This document shows positions 1-25,441 of a DNA stretch of 64,000 bases, in pieces. Numbering within the stretch: the first letter of the stretch is position 1; each line of letters starts with the position of its first letter. This stretch comes from Psychromonas sp. MME1 (GTDB taxonomy: Bacteria; Pseudomonadota; Gammaproteobacteria; Enterobacterales; Psychromonadaceae): the NCBI RefSeq assembly GCF_041080865.1, contig NZ_CP160906.1, positions 496,001-560,000 of the forward strand. Reading direction: 5' to 3'. The notes below the pieces were generated by a model, which ran no database searches, was not told the origin of the DNA, and saw nothing but the letters and a program-made list of their open reading frames with translations. A program made the position numbers and the translations under genes.

Positions 1-597
1 CTGATAACGCATGCCATGACGAATAGTGATGCTATTTTTATCTTCACCATACACACTTATTTTAGCACCATTAAGTTGGGGAGGGTTGAGCTCTAAATCA
101 CGGCTATTTTGCGCTAGGTAGATAGTTGTTGTTAATCGCAGTGGTTGGTCAATATAAACACTTTTCTTGGTGATGCTGTTTTCCATAAATACCGCGTTAT
201 CGGCAAGTTTAGTTGCTTCTTCGGAGGGTTTTTTGACGGAAATTTGAATCGGTTTTGTTTTCAAAGAACCGATATTGATGGCGGGAATGGTTAGCTCACC
301 AATTCGTTTTGCCTGTAGATTAATTTGCCAGACCGTTTGTCGCTGAGCATTTCCGTTAATAATCTGAGTGCTTCGGCTTTCAGAGGGGCGATATACTGTG
401 AATTCTTGTTCAAGTGGTCGTGTATCTAACTTATATTCTGATCCCGTATCATTAAGTTCAATAGTTAACACAAATAGGTCACCTAAGAAAACTTGATTAC
501 TAGAAACAGATGTTTGTAATTGTGTGTTAGCTAAAGCACTAGGTAGTTGAAATAACATTAATAAAAGTGCGATAAAAAGAGATATTTGTGTGCGCAT
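1..597 (-). CDS. batD: BatD, oxygen-tolerance family protein (N-terminal part)
   Basis: The leftward frame is open from the ATG at 597 to the window edge, giving 199 residues of a longer protein. It begins with a signal peptide (MRTQISLFIALLLMLF, cut after about SALA), then a beta-rich periplasmic region with the look of BatD (pfam DUF7939/BatD type). The start ATG overlaps the batB stop by one base (TAATG), so the two are translationally coupled. BatD is a membrane-anchored periplasmic partner of the BatA/BatB VWA proteins; its biochemical role is not settled. The C-terminus, with the expected membrane anchor, is outside the window. Confidence 0.8.
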   Translation of the reverse strand, partial: MRTQISLFIALLLMLFQLPSALANTQLQTSVSSNQVFLGDLFVLTIELNDTGSEYKLDTRPLEQEFTVYRPSESRSTQIINGNAQRQTVWQINLQAKRIGELTIPAINIGSLKTKPIQISVKKPSEEATKLADNAVFMENSITKKSVYIDQPLRLTTTIYLAQNSRDLELNPPQLNGAKISVYGEDKNSITIRHGMRYQ

Positions 598-2537
598 TAC
601 CAACTGTCTCCACTGTTTTGTCGTTTGACGGGTTTTGACTCCGCTCTTTTGTGATATTCCAAACGCATTTTGTTGCGTAATAAAAGAGCGGGATCATCGG
701 GCATGTTTTTTAACCACATGGGAAGATCTTCAAGCTCTTGATTTTTTTCAGGGCCATTTTCTTGCTCAGCTAATTGTTGTGGTTCATTTTGTTGCTGCTC
801 ATTTTGCTGCTGCTCATTTTGCTGCTGCTCATTTTGCTGCTGCTCATTTTGTTGCTGCTCATTTTGTTGCTGCTCATTGTGCTGCTGCTCATTTTGCTGC
901 TGCTCATTTTGTTGCTGCTCATTTTGCTGCTGCTCATTTTGCTGCTGCTCATTTTGCTGCTGCTCATTTTGCTGCTGCTCATTTTGCTGCTGCTCATTTT
1001 GCTGCTGCTCATTTTGTTGCTGCTCATTTTGCTGCTGCTCATTTTGTTGCTGCTCATTTTGCTGCTGCTCATTTTGTTGCTGCTCATTTTGCTGCTGCTC
1101 ATTTTGCTGCTGTTCGTTTTGCTGCTGCTCATTTTGTTGCTGTTCGTTTTGTTGCTGTTGATTTTGTAACTCTTCAATTAATTTTTTATTATCTGCCGCA
1201 ACTTGTAATGTCGGATCGATTTTTAGTGCTTGTTCATAGGCTGTGATAGCTTTATCAAGCTCTTGCAATTGTGCTAAGGCATTTCCTTGATTATAAAAAG
1301 CCGTGGCATCATTGGGATTGGCTCGCGTAGCTTTGTTATATTGCTCTAGTGCTTCTTGGTACTGCTTGTTTTGATAGAGCGCGCTGCCCTTTGCATTGGG
1401 GTTTTTGTATAATTCTGCGGCAATGTCATAGTTTTTTTCTTGGTATGCTTGGTAGGCATTTTGTTGATTATTTTGCCAAATTGACGCCTGTGCCGCTGGC
1501 GGGGTAACTAAGGTTGTCGTTAACCCTAGTAAGGCGATATAAAAAAGACCTTTTCTAAATAGTAATAAAAAAAGTGGTAGCAATAGAAAAGCGATCCAAT
1601 AGCCATCATCTTTAGGAAATTGATCCGCTGATGAGGTTTTGTCTTCGCTTTTGTGACCCGTTGGTACGCTAAAATAATTGCCGAGTTGTTTAATATCTGA
1701 ATTTGTATTTTTTATTGTTAAAAATAAGCCATCACTAGCCTTTGTTATTGCATACATCGCTTTAGTTTGTAAGGTCGGGATAACAATATCCCCTTGCTGA
1801 TCTTTTAATAGAGTGCCATCCGTTAATTTTATTGGTGCTCCTTTGCTAGTGCCGACAGCTAACATTGAAACAATCCAATCTGTTCCTTCAATGCGTTGTA
1901 ACATTTTTTGTGATGTTTCTTCATCAATACCATCACTAATAAAAACAATATGCCCTTGTTGGTAATTGGCATTTTGTAACAATGCAATGGCTTTCTCTAG
2001 CGCTATGTCTGCATTCGATCCCGTTACGGGCATGATATCCGGTGAAAGACTGGCTATGTGATTGATGATGGAATTACCATCTGGGGTTAAGGGAGAAATA
2101 GTAAAGGGCTCGCCAGCATAAGCTATTAGCGCTTTTTCGCCTTCCCCCCATTGTTTAATAAGATCGATTGCTTTGTATTTAGCTTGGCTTACGCGGTTAG
2201 GTTTGATGTCCGTTGCGTACATAGAGTAGGAGAGATCTAGCACTAAAACTTGTGCTTTTTGCATCTCATAAACGGGTAATTGTAGACTACGCCAACTTGG
2301 TCCCGATAATGCGATGCACGCAATCGTAGTGAGTAAAGGTAACAGCAGTTGTTTGCTTTTGCTGAAGGTATCGGTACTCACTAACTGTTTGCTTAAATGG
2401 GGAGCAATTAACGGGTTTGCACGCTCTTTTTTAGCCGATTGTTGTTTTATCAACAAAAAGAGAGGGATAACAAACAATCCAAGTAACCATAAAGGTCGTA
2501 AAAATTGCAGTGGCATCAAGGTGCTTTCAGGCAACAT
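597..2537 (-). CDS. batB: BatB-BatC type protein: VWA domain, TPRs and a Gln/Asn/Glu pentapeptide tract
   Basis: 646 residues. The N-terminus has two membrane segments (about 12-30 and 60-80), followed by a von Willebrand A domain with the MIDAS motif DLSYS near residue 98. A further membrane segment lies near 315-350. The C-terminal part (about 360-455) holds TPR-like helices, then 25 copies of a five-residue unit (QQQNE) at 460-584, and a charged tail. Elsewhere BatB (VWA) and BatC (TPR) are separate; here they form one chain. It overlaps batA by 11 bp and batD by 1 bp. The repeat tract leaves other frames open, which creates spurious ORFs on both strands. A role in stress or aerotolerance is inferred from the family. 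Confidence 0.85.
   Translation of the reverse strand: MLPESTLMPLQFLRPLWLLGLFVIPLFLLIKQQSAKKERANPLIAPHLSKQLVSTDTFSKSKQLLLPLLTTIACIALSGPSWRSLQLPVYEMQKAQVLVLDLSYSMYATDIKPNRVSQAKYKAIDLIKQWGEGEKALIAYAGEPFTISPLTPDGNSIINHIASLSPDIMPVTGSNADIALEKAIALLQNANYQQGHIVFISDGIDEETSQKMLQRIEGTDWIVSMLAVGTSKGAPIKLTDGTLLKDQQGDIVIPTLQTKAMYAITKASDGLFLTIKNTNSDIKQLGNYFSVPTGHKSEDKTSSADQFPKDDGYWIAFLLLPLFLLLFRKGLFYIALLGLTTTLVTPPAAQASIWQNNQQNAYQAYQEKNYDIAAELYKNPNAKGSALYQNKQYQEALEQYNKATRANPNDATAFYNQGNALAQLQELDKAITAYEQALKIDPTLQVAADNKKLIEELQNQQQQNEQQQNEQQQNEQQQNEQQQNEQQQNEQQQNEQQQNEQQQNEQQQNEQQQNEQQQNEQQQNEQQQNEQQQNEQQQNEQQQNEQQQNEQQHNEQQQNEQQQNEQQQNEQQQNEQQQNEQQQNEPQQLAEQENGPEKNQELEDLPMWLKNMPDDPALLLRNKMRLEYHKRAESKPVKRQNSGDSW
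784..1158 (-). repeat. 15-bp tandem repeat, 25 units, inside batB
   Basis: Twenty-five head-to-tail copies of a 15-bp unit (plus strand TCATTTTGCTGCTGC) with no length variation, so reading frame is always kept. Differences are mostly third-position T/C changes, plus one unit that encodes His instead of Gln (near 880). The unit encodes NEQQQ on the coding strand. In-frame, near-identical copies suggest slippage or unequal recombination that can vary the length of the tract. Confidence 0.97.
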
Positions 2538-23653: not shown

Positions 23654-23754
23654 GCGGTAATACTCTAAACAATAAATTAGCGTTGTAATTTAACATGTTA
23701 TGAACGTTAATATCGCTTTCAAAATATAAAAAATATTATAACGAGGAATTAGCA

Positions 23755-24114
23755 ATGATGAATAAAAATGTATTTAGTTACTGTTTATTACTCTGTTTAT
23801 CTTTTTATATTAATAGTAGTAATGCAGCACAAATTATAGATTCTGAAAATAATAATAATACCTATCAAATAGGGCGAATGGTACAAAAAATCCAAATAGC
23901 ACTAGATACTTTCGATGAAAAGCAGTCGTTACAGATTATCGTAGCTTATGGAACAGATTCCCGATATTACATGATGATTCGAGGTTGGCTCTTTCAAGAG
24001 CTCGTTGCCGTTGAGAGCCAATTATATGCGGCTAAAAAAGCACAAGTGAAACAAGCTTTTCAAGATAAATCAAATTTTTTAAAAAAAGCAATTAGAGCAA
24101 TTGATCTAGAATAG
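23755..24114 (+). CDS. Small secreted protein of unknown function
   Basis: 119 residues. A signal peptide (hydrophobic 6-20, likely cut after SSNAA near 25) is followed by a mostly helical, charged mature part of about 94 residues with no cysteine and no motif I recognise. ACGAGGAATTAGC before the ATG is a good ribosome site. It probably works in the periplasm. It lies between the methyltransferase promoter and the tRNA tail repeats, with no obvious partner. Confidence 0.65.
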   Translation: MMNKNVFSYCLLLCLSFYINSSNAAQIIDSENNNNTYQIGRMVQKIQIALDTFDEKQSLQIIVAYGTDSRYYMMIRGWLFQELVAVESQLYAAKKAQVKQAFQDKSNFLKKAIRAIDLE

Positions 24115-24190
24115 GAATGATTAGCAATTGCAATAAATTGTAGTAGCTGAACCTATCTTAGTTTTCTTCCTTTCATTTTCTTACAGGCAT

Positions 24191-24214
24191 AAAAAAACCA
24201 GCAATAAGCTGGTT
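24191..24214 (-). terminator. Terminator in tail repeat 1
   Basis: On the minus strand AACCAGC, loop TTATT, GCTGGTT, then seven Ts. It is a copy of the terminators at 24341 and 24491 and is the last of the three met by the tRNA transcript. Confidence 0.85.
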
Positions 24215-24340
24215 AATTTATTTCTTTATCTCGATAAAGAATGGTGCGGAATGAGAGACTTGAACTCTCACACCCTTCGCGTTCTTTAAGGAATAGCTGA
24301 ACCTATCTTAGCTTTCTTCCTTTCATTTTCTTACAGGCAT

Positions 24341-24364
24341 AAAAAAACCAGCAATAAGCTGGTT
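24341..24364 (-). terminator. Terminator in tail repeat 2
   Basis: Same 7-bp stem, 5-base loop and T-run as its two sister copies; second in line for polymerase reading through the tRNA operon. Confidence 0.85.
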
Positions 24365-24490
24365 AATTTATTTCTTTATCTCGATAAAGAATGGTGCGGA
24401 ATGAGAGAGTTGAGTTTTTACACCCTTCGCGTTCTTTAAGGAATAGCTGAACCTATCTTAGCTTTCTTCCTTTCATTTTCTTACAGGCAT

Positions 24491-24514
24491 AAAAAAACCA
24501 GCAATAAGCTGGTT
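24491..24514 (-). terminator. Primary terminator of the tRNA operon
   Basis: AACCAGC/GCTGGTT stem with a T-run on the minus strand, 28 bases beyond the last tRNA-Leu. It is the first of three identical terminators. Confidence 0.9.
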
Positions 24515-24541
24515 AATTTATTTCTTTATCTCGATAAAGAA

Positions 24542-24626
24542 TGGTGCGGAATGAGAGACTTGAACTCTCACACCCTTCGATACTAGAACCTAAATCTAGC
24601 GCGTCTACCAATTCCGCCAATTCCGC
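24542..24626 (-). tRNA. tRNA-Leu (TAG)
   Basis: 85 bases, starting GCGGAATTGG and ending in encoded CCA. The anticodon stem CTAGA/TCTAG encloses TTTAGGT, giving anticodon TAG; the long variable arm is typical of Leu. It is the last gene of the operon, and its 3' end is the source of the tandem tail repeats. Confidence 0.95.
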
Positions 24627-24633
24627 AAAAAAG

Positions 24634-24708
24634 TGGCTGGGATAAGAGGATTTGAACCTCTGAATGCCGAGATCAAAACCCGGTGCCTTACCGCTTGGCG
24701 ATATCCCA
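24634..24708 (-). tRNA. tRNA-Gln (TTG)
   Basis: 75 bases, starting TGGGATATCGCC and ending in CCA. The anticodon loop is TTTTGAT, giving TTG. It is identical to the copy at 24765-24839. Only 7 bases separate it from the next tRNA-Leu. Confidence 0.96.
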
Positions 24709-24764
24709 GTTGTAAGTTTATACTTCTTCAAGTTTACCAATTTGTTTACACAAATTAGTGAAAG

Positions 24765-24839
24765 TGGCTGGGATAAGAGGATTTGAACCTCTGAATGCCG
24801 AGATCAAAACCCGGTGCCTTACCGCTTGGCGATATCCCA
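24765..24839 (-). tRNA. tRNA-Gln (TTG), second copy
   Basis: Identical 75-base gene to the neighbouring tRNA-Gln, with encoded CCA. The duplication matches the glnU/glnW arrangement in the E. coli metT operon. Confidence 0.96.
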
Positions 24840-24894
24840 ACTGTTATTTTTTAAGAGTGAATTCTCTATAGGTAATTCTTTATTAAATAAAGAA

Positions 24895-24979
24895 TGGTGC
24901 GGAAAGAGAGACTTGAACTCTCACACCTTACGATACTAGAACCTAAATCTAGCGCGTCTACCAATTCCGCCATTTCCGC
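24895..24979 (-). tRNA. tRNA-Leu (TAG), first copy
   Basis: 85 bases with the same anticodon arm (TTTAGGT loop) as the copy at 24542. It differs at compensating acceptor-stem positions (GCGGAAA with TTTCCGC) and in the variable arm (GTAAGG), so both are probably functional. Confidence 0.95.
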
Positions 24980-24992
24980 AACTAAAAGTAAA

Positions 24993-25069
24993 TGGTGGCT
25001 ACACCGAGATTTGAACTTGGGACCCCATCATTATGAGTGATGTGCTCTAACCAGCTGAGCTATGTAGCC
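24993..25069 (-). tRNA. tRNA-Met (CAT), elongator
   Basis: 77 bases, starting GGCTACATAGCTCAGC and ending in CCA; the anticodon loop is CTCATAA. Base pairing at the first position and the overall sequence fit elongator Met (metT type), not the initiator. It is the first gene of the operon. Confidence 0.95.
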
Positions 25070-25124
25070 ATTTTACTTTCTAATCTCAACCTTGTCTGTT
25101 ACCAGCAACGTTTCGATGGGGCGC

Positions 25125-25153
25125 ATTATGCGGATATCGATGATTGTCGTCAA
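25125..25153 (-). promoter_or_regulatory. Sigma-70 promoter of the tRNA operon
   Basis: On the minus strand TTGACG, a 17-base spacer, then CATAAT, followed by GCGCCCC. The near-consensus elements with a GC-rich discriminator are typical of stringently controlled stable RNA promoters. It lies 55 bases before the first tRNA. Confidence 0.85.
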
Positions 25154-25441
25154 CTGATTTTTGAGAAAAAAAGTTATTTTTCTTTCGTTTGCTTAAATGC
25201 TAGACAAGTTGTTTTTATTTTAAACAGATAAAGTGCAATTTTCAATAGCGAATACTTTTCTTAAATAGCATTCTCATCACAAATAAGTTTGCAGCGGTCA
25301 CGCAACACAAGGTGCCATTCTATTTGTTAACGACAAGCGCGTTACGATGTGAATATGAGTAAGATATGAAATAGAGAGGGAAAGGCGTCTATAGCGCTTT
25401 TATTGGCTTTAAAAGCGCAGCGTGATGTAAATATGTTTAGG
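25154..25441. other. Intergenic region upstream of the tRNA promoter
   Basis: AT-rich stretch without an ORF that has a ribosome site or family resemblance. It may contain upstream activating A/T tracts for the tRNA promoter (for example TTTTTCTCAAAAATC on the minus strand next to the -35). I see no repeat or RNA gene here. Confidence 0.5.

Follow-up and report, generated by a model that had tools for sequence, protein, structure and literature searches.

Downstream of a tRNA operon of Psychromonas sp. MME1, the end of the operon appears three times in succession, which raises the question of how such an arrangement arose and whether the additional copies serve the cell. The stretch of DNA analysed here (the window) comprises 64,000 nucleotides (contig NZ_CP160906.1, positions 496,001 to 560,000) and stems from a genome that consists of one contig of 3.59 Mb. 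The operon lies on the minus strand and encodes tRNA-Met(CAU) as its first gene (24993..25069; ARAGORN and Rfam), a first copy of tRNA-Leu(UAG) (24895..24979), two tRNA-Gln(UUG) (24765..24839 and 24634..24708; all three identified by ARAGORN) and a second tRNA-Leu(UAG) (24542..24626; ARAGORN and Rfam RF00005), which is the last functional gene and the source of the repeated 3' end. A probable promoter of the operon on the same strand (TTGACG, 17 nt, CATAAT; 25125..25153) agrees with the consensus at 10 of 12 positions; the scan returned five promoter-like sites against a shuffled mean of 3.5, and a consensus match alone is no evidence of function.

Behind this Met-Leu-Gln-Gln-Leu operon, a unit of 150 bp occurs three times on the minus strand (24144-24593). 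The units start at 24144, 24294 and 24444, so that both spacings are exactly 150, and by coordinate the second and third are 96% and 92% identical to the first. Tandem Repeats Finder reports the region 24144-24579 with a period of 150, 2.9 copies and a score of 830; because of the exact spacing and this score, the repeat is not due to chance, and the three repeats of exact 150-bp period described in the original prediction are confirmed. In the 5' to 3' direction of the minus strand, the elements of every unit follow in the order tRNA-Leu 3' end with CCA, 8-bp hairpin immediately behind the CCA, A/U-rich linker, terminator and spacer. Three tail repeats had been announced and three units are indeed present, but only two of them are extra copies, the remaining one being the functional tRNA-Leu(UAG) gene's own end. 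The first trailer hairpin (24522..24541), an 8-bp stem with a 4-nt loop, follows directly after the CCA of this gene and was found by folding, its arms covarying among congeners; the second and third (24372..24391 and 24222..24241) are fold predictions. The array terminator reads AACCAGC-TTATT-GCTGGTT, then a T run. Terminator 1 (AACCAGCTTATTGCTGGTT, then the T run) is located at 24496..24514, terminator 2 at 24346..24364 and terminator 3 at 24196..24214, and all three were recovered on the minus strand by the terminator scan, which combines consensus and fold prediction. In total, 24000-25300 contains six terminator-like sites, including plus-strand mirror images, compared to a shuffled mean of 1.3.

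The claim that each repeat carries about 38 nt of the tRNA-Leu 3' end together with a terminator holds for the terminators and for the outer copy (24242..24279), whose 38 nt are identical to the gene; in the middle copy (24392..24429), the 3'-terminal identity to tRNA-Leu is reduced to 17 nt. The T-arm changes noted earlier in this copy were found as five substitutions within 11 nt, which break the T-stem, whereas only one of 139 sites elsewhere differs from the outer copy. Since the changes are packed and the rest of the copy is nearly identical, they look like one multi-base event; three of the five are G-to-A exchanges at alternating sites. Upstream of the 3' ends, sequence comparison places a pseudo-tRNA core at 24444..24455 in the first extra copy (TAGGTTCAGCTA, continuing TTC) and at 24294..24305 in the second, and the array ends with a third, truncated pseudo-tRNA piece, again a core, at 24144..24155. 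An open frame of 119 amino acids on the plus strand (23755-24114), without a Pfam match, faces the array with its end.

The closest known counterparts are the tRNA-linked repeats (TLRs) of E. coli, which have been known since 1978 (Egan and Landy 1978 and Rudd 1999, cited in PMC8144298). According to PMC8144298, E. coli K-12 has 22 TLRs at ten loci, and the 3' end of each repeats 18-19 bp of the tRNA or rRNA that precedes it; the class includes the tyrT/rtT repeats and rrB, has no established function, and the sections consulted offer no account of its origin. The window array shows the TLR features tested. Its units are located downstream of tRNA-Leu, on the same strand and in a tRNA operon, the 3' identity is 38 nt in the outer copy and, with 17 nt in the middle one, just under the E. 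coli range, and TLR loci have one to five copies, compared to two extra copies here and one to five in congeners. The proposed likeness to the repeats behind E. coli tyrT was correct as regards the plan, both being tRNA-linked repeats; the Rfam covariance model of RtT RNA returned no row at E<=1 in 23700-25400.

That the copies are only 3' fragments, as had been stated, is true of the window taken alone; in relatives, however, the corresponding units are eroded pseudo-tRNA genes, and seeing the 'fragments' as pseudo-tRNA-Leu genes is new. In P. antarctica (G001) and in genomes G009, G013, G014 and G023, the tRNA content of the units extends far beyond 38 nt, up to the whole gene. Near-complete pseudo-tRNA-Leu copies are found in G013, G014 and G009, and the P. 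antarctica copy spans tRNA positions 11-85 with the same insertion. This insertion of 10-13 nt on the anticodon/variable-arm side is common to several species: where the real tRNA reads TTAGGTTCTAGTATCG, the pseudo-tRNA reads TTAGGTTCAGCTATTC plus a linker, followed by GCG. The same insertion occurs in the pseudo-tRNA-Leu of a Pro-His-Leu-Pro type operon in G006, G007 and G011, and also in G012, where the copy is ended by the contig edge. A decayed tRNA-Gln end precedes the pseudo-tRNA-Leu in G009 (7/28 mismatches) and, by eye, in G014, from which it follows that the duplicated block was probably Gln-Leu-terminator. In the MME1 genome and in P. marina (G006), the 5' half of the pseudo-tRNA is gone. 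When compared with the tRNA 5' half, the P. antarctica unit reached a score matched by 0/1000 shuffles; the window spacer has no significant similarity to it (129/1000 shuffles reach the score), so that the pseudo-tRNA link of the window copies rests on the relatives.

A covariance model of the pseudo-tRNA, built from 22 rows, gave matches above 70 bits in 12/24 genus genomes and scored real tRNA-Leu(UAG) genes with 54-64 bits; in the window, the outer copy reached 79.4 and the middle one 64.6 bits. Similarity to the tRNA past the exact 3' match was detected in 17/23 Psychromonas units at p<=0.05 and in 14/23 at p<=0.01, in a test in which some units contain an earlier copy and in which, after a short exact match, T-arm similarity counts too; leaving out the P. 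marina row, which borders masked sequence, the numbers are 16/22 and 13/22. The middle copy of the window has a p of 0.0075 in this test, its exact match being short and its T-arm therefore counted, and the outer copy one of 0.25. Comparison with relatives supports the reading of the Psychromonas tRNA 'fragments' as putative eroded pseudo-tRNA-Leu genes, and likewise supports a probable loss of the 5' halves in several lineages, including that of the window, whose units after this 5' erosion consist of the core (TAGGTTCAGCTATT) and up to 38 nt of the 3' end. In P. marina (L041), one unit has lost its terminator, so that two pseudo-tRNA units follow each other directly; at their junction lies a shared AACCAG, a sequence that the terminator and the pseudo-tRNA have in common, and the junction shows the type of recombination at work. 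The first pseudo-tRNA-Leu of P. arctica (L161) and of G018 (L158) carries an insertion of about 150 nt right after the core, with inverted ends (TACCAAT...ATTGGTA) that look MITE-like by eye.

The E. coli TLRs differ in this respect. Their units match 18-19 nt exactly and little beyond, with further tRNA similarity in 3/14 units at p<=0.05, all of them tyr units, and in 0/14 at p<=0.01, unlike the Psychromonas Leu units, which are pseudo-tRNAs and are mostly followed by a trailer hairpin and a terminator. The idea that E. coli TLRs are pseudo-tRNAs in general is unsupported by these numbers, which come from 12 K-12 loci, five of them with repeats, and thus from a partial set, since PMC8144298 counts ten TLR loci. 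A helix closing on the 3' end (p<=0.05 against shuffles) was predicted for 6/14 E. coli units, comprising 4/4 tyr units (p 0.003-0.03) and 2/10 of the others, compared to 0/16 of the Psychromonas units tested. No such repeat was found behind the metT-leuW-gln operon of E. coli K-12, which has a similar gene content.

Within Psychromonas, operon ends were compared, as had been suggested as a check: among 22 assessable genomes, the pseudo-tRNA core is located downstream of the operon in 16, and the tail has at least two terminators of this type in nine. No core was found in the remaining 6/22 genomes (G005, G008, G010, G012, G017 and G020), which have one terminator or none, and the array is therefore dispensable; in G017, a copy in an advanced state of decay lies about 1 kb further downstream. 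The count covers 22 of 24 genomes, leaving out G002 (14 nt only) and G021 (operon not located); the last readable tRNA is one other than Leu(UAG) in G004, G005, G006 and G013, and about 250 nt each of G014 and G022 are covered. All 24 genus genomes, this one included, match the query, which alone does not show tails because real tRNA-Leu genes also match. The signature TTAGGTTCARCTATTC..GCG was detected in 7/295 genomes drawn from the order, all of them Psychromonas, and in 0/272 others; the pattern as written does not capture the copies of the window itself, in which the sequence is ATAGG, and among 369 genomes drawn from the class one, namely this one, has a close variant. The genus includes natural operon ends that carry one, two, three or four terminators, and the last unit is without a terminator in G001, G009, G018 and G023. 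No description of these Psychromonas arrays was found in the literature searched, from which subscription journals were mostly absent. Taken together, the array is real, is of the TLR kind and is widespread in the genus, where it takes a form that exposes its pseudo-tRNA origin.

Related arrangements are found at other tRNA operons. In a scan of 34 further tRNA-bearing stretches of this genome with their downstream flanks, which together include all tRNA sites that the tRNA search listed beyond the window and four of which were inspected in full, a second array of the same plan was identified behind Arg(CCG)-His-Pro(UGG) (L148; C1 ~2,528,980-2,529,370, minus strand). It has three terminators (AAGACCGCACTTG(C/T)TGCGGTTTTTT) with spacings of 175 and 174 bp and two extra Pro 3' ends with a tRNA similarity of 14 nt; the test used for the Leu units revealed no tRNA similarity beyond these 14 nt, which is a point against the favoured explanation given below. 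The same genome contains a four-gene initiator-Met array, and the pseudo copy behind it has an interrupted anticodon arm. Extra 3' ends also follow the tRNA-Leu(UAA) of congeners, which is mostly the last gene of a Gly-Cys-Leu operon, in 7/14 genomes examined (G003, G012, G016, G017, G018, G021 and G023), and none were seen in G000, G001, G005, G007, G013, G015 and G022. Outside Psychromonas, a Met tRNA of G073 from another family of the order (L093, 976-1540) is followed by four terminators spaced by exactly 126 bp, the extra copies having an enlarged T-loop region, and G217 and G142 have extra Phe ends; in units of other families, tRNA similarity beyond the 3' end was seen in 1/3 at p<=0.05 and in 0/3 at p<=0.01. 

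Further pseudo-tRNAs were noticed during this survey. Pseudo-tRNA-Pro, -Gln and -initiator-Met with extra anticodon-arm bases are located in or beside tRNA operons (L137, L148, L139 (own genome), L044, L046, L161, L158 and L010), and in 11/13 rows for Pro and Gln the tRNA 3' end is missing, a pattern opposite to that of the Leu tails. When pseudo-tRNA-Pro genes whose anticodon arm is enlarged were searched for by pattern, most matches fell in the D-loop of real tRNA-Pro; among the matches listed, two (G181 and G081) look like interrupted copies. The related marine bacterium Photobacterium phosphoreum reportedly has a repetitive tRNA-Pro/tRNA-His cluster with many duplicated and pseudo-tRNA copies, which would resemble the present case as a tRNA operon with duplicated and pseudo-tRNA copies. 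Another repeat of the window is of a different nature: a 646-aa open frame (597-2537, minus strand), which by eye looks like a von Willebrand/TPR protein, contains 25.5 copies of a 15-bp repeat (784-1166) that encodes QQQNE runs.

Which parts of the units are conserved was analysed in part using alignment A2, whose 22 rows do not include every copy; the first copies of P. arctica and G018, which are split by the insertion, are omitted, and this omission carries into the conservation and fold results based on it. The conservation figures drawn from A2 further exclude G015, G016 and G019 as well as the first copy of G003 and that of G018, all of which had been identified through the core pattern. 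Between genomes, the last 28 nt have a mean identity of 0.81, the 44 nt before them one of 0.77, the 45 nt upstream one of 0.51 and the trailer one of 0.54, compared to 0.37-0.44 for shuffled sequence. In 13 rows of A2 that were picked by their 3' ends and hence independently of the core, the core is the most conserved 15-nt window (0.87), closely followed by the T-arm (0.86). Exact matches to the 14-mer TAGGTTCAGCTATT were found at 23 places, spread over 14/24 genus genomes, and a reversed-pattern control gave one; 22/23 places are pseudo-tRNA-Leu, and the remaining one, in an apparent coding gene of G021, is taken as chance. The core is found in two operons and is kept in G015, G016 and at the window's array end, places at which the tRNA 3' end and the terminator have decayed or disappeared and the core itself served for recognition. 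An exceptional conservation of the core in comparison with unalignable operon spacers, considered at one point, proved wrong: two operon spacers and the leader are about equally conserved (0.72-0.79). The pseudo-tRNA part has no common fold by RNAalifold (3 pairs, -0.17 kcal/mol), and a stem with paired changes, which visual inspection suggested for G009 and G023, does not hold generally.

The trailer hairpin behaves differently depending on its position. Behind functional genes, 21/22 hairpins beat 95% of shuffles, and 10/11 distinct pairs of 8-bp arms are perfect versus 11/110 cross-species combinations, a count that omits five trailers with stems of 6-7 bp; by this covariation, the trailer is kept as a structure behind functional genes. 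In the extra copies, 12/23 hairpins beat 95% of shuffles; those of G001, G006, G013 and the last copies of G009 and G023 are below this level. Core identity is 0.91 within a genome versus 0.77 between genomes, which is what regular duplication or conversion of units would produce.

Taken as a whole, we consider it somewhat more probable than any other outcome combined that the locus is a TLR array that arose by duplication of the operon end, provides back-up termination and yields read-through RNA that is trimmed at the CCA copies. The operon end, consisting of the last tRNA gene, the trailer hairpin and the terminator, would have been duplicated in tandem, and the tRNA-Leu copies thereby placed between terminators would have decayed into pseudogenes within Psychromonas, the repeats staying alike within one genome. 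A polymerase that passes terminator 1 would encounter two further copies of the same terminator at intervals of 150 nt. Read-through RNA between the terminators would contain the tRNA 3' end as well as the pseudo-tRNA core and may be cut near the CCA by the usual tRNA 3'-processing enzymes, as was proposed for RrB between the two terminators of rrnB. Points for this explanation are the pseudo-tRNA model hits and near-complete copies in relatives, the tails with at least two terminators in 9/22 genomes, the covarying trailer hairpin behind functional genes, the likeness of copies within a genome, the second array behind Arg-His-Pro and the rrnB precedent. We infer termination, transcription and processing of the array from its DNA. 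Extra termination, one of the roles suggested originally, fits because all three units keep an intact predicted terminator and the same trailer hairpin, and the exact three-unit array with intact predicted terminators is a point for it; points against it are the 6/22 genomes without the core and with at most one terminator, and the weak hairpins of the extra copies (12/23 above the shuffles). The core, moreover, is not needed for back-up termination, yet G015, G016 and the end of the window's array still have it. The production of CCA-ended tRNA-like RNAs, a second suggested role, is weakly supported, given the broken T-stem of the middle copy, the three pairs found by RNAalifold and the absence of a helix closing on the 3' end in all 16 units.

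The main rival of the duplication and back-up termination model is that the array is neutral debris: unequal recombination would duplicate and homogenise the operon end, and the terminators and pseudo-tRNA pieces would be unselected. Such an origin, which we regard as rather unlikely, would account for a copy number that varies from one to five extra copies, for last units without a terminator in four genomes, for the terminator lost in the AACCAG-sharing junction of P. marina and for the likeness of copies within a genome, and it agrees with trailer hairpins that are weak in 11/23 extra copies and with the 6/22 genomes that have no core. It is harder to reconcile with the maintenance of the trailer hairpin behind functional genes by covariation and with the core being the most conserved 15-nt window, narrowly so with respect to the T-arm, while other parts reach 0.51-0.54. 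A remnant of mobile-element integration and excision at tRNA-Leu had also been suggested; in its favour, tRNA 3' ends are common attachment sites and pieces of such an end are repeated here. This suggestion is not upheld and has very little to recommend it: no integrase or phage family is present among the nine flanking proteins, searches of 50,697 phage and 72,556 plasmid records gave no match, the terminators repeat along with the tRNA piece, and relatives keep tRNA 5' halves in their units, in G009 with the decayed tRNA-Gln end upstream. Even less credible is an assembly artefact, which the original prediction had named as a possible refutation. Assemblers may mis-collapse or expand short, near-identical tandem units; the genome is, however, a single contig, and other species show the same architecture with different sequences, which makes a duplication by the assembler very unlikely.

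Next in rank after neutral debris is a gene for a small RNA, in which the core would act by base pairing or protein binding and terminator 1 would set the level, as for RrA, RrB and RrF. According to PMC8144298, rrB is located between the two terminators of rrnB, of which T1 stops 87% and T2 100% of transcripts, and its repeated 18 bp are spaced by 150 bp; RrB is made by read-through, a cut by RNase E at the repeat was proposed, and for RrA, RrB and RrF of E. coli the first terminator was proposed to set the RNA level. The window array shares with these RNAs an arrangement in which a spacer RNA and, after it, a copy of the mature RNA 3' end stand between two terminators, and with rrB the spacing, 150 bp being the distance between the 18-bp repeats of rrnB and the length of the unit here; predicted terminators flank a unit that ends in a copy of a mature-RNA 3' end. 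The E. coli RNAs, each of which lies between the two terminators of one of three rRNA operons, differ in that they involve 5S rRNA rather than a tRNA, and their expression and binding to Hfq or CsrA have been shown; the window array has three terminators. We judge a small RNA gene to be improbable. This E. coli precedent, the exact occurrence of the core 14-mer at 23 places in 14/24 genomes with one control match, its presence in two operons and its retention where the 5' half and the 3' end are lost argue for it; the pseudo-tRNA part has no conserved secondary structure, the consensus scan found no minus-strand promoter-like site within the array, and two operon spacers and the leader are similarly conserved.

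A comparable trailer RNA is 3'ETS-leuZ of the E. coli glyW-cysT-leuZ operon, which, according to PMC6191717 and PMC8144298, derives from the trailer of a tRNA-Leu operon, ends in a terminator and pairs with RyhB. The Psychromonas tRNA-Leu(UAA), mostly in a Gly-Cys-Leu operon, also bears tails; 3'ETS-leuZ, in contrast, is a single copy, and no repeated tRNA end was found in L185. A role of the core as a RyhB sponge was considered on the basis of a 9-bp match to E. coli RyhB and was dropped because RyhB was not found by Rfam in the 24 genus genomes; the model (RF00057) gave 0/24 hits with a positive E. coli control, and a strongly diverged RyhB would escape it. This also counts against the small RNA gene.

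The core may have a role as RNA that is under selection. In a bolder proposal, which we hold to be doubtful, TLRs as a class would start out as pseudo-tRNA genes arranged in tandem where operons end, and the Psychromonas pseudo-tRNA-Leu would have become selected, its core of about 15 nt, read only on terminator read-through, reporting the activity of the tRNA operon to a partner. The Psychromonas arrays suggest an origin for the E. coli repeat class, and this origin is testable because one genus spans the range from a near-complete pseudo-tRNA to a 38-nt remnant and also contains the TLR-like Pro array. Furthermore, the operon ends with one to four terminators are material for measuring the effect of stacked terminators.
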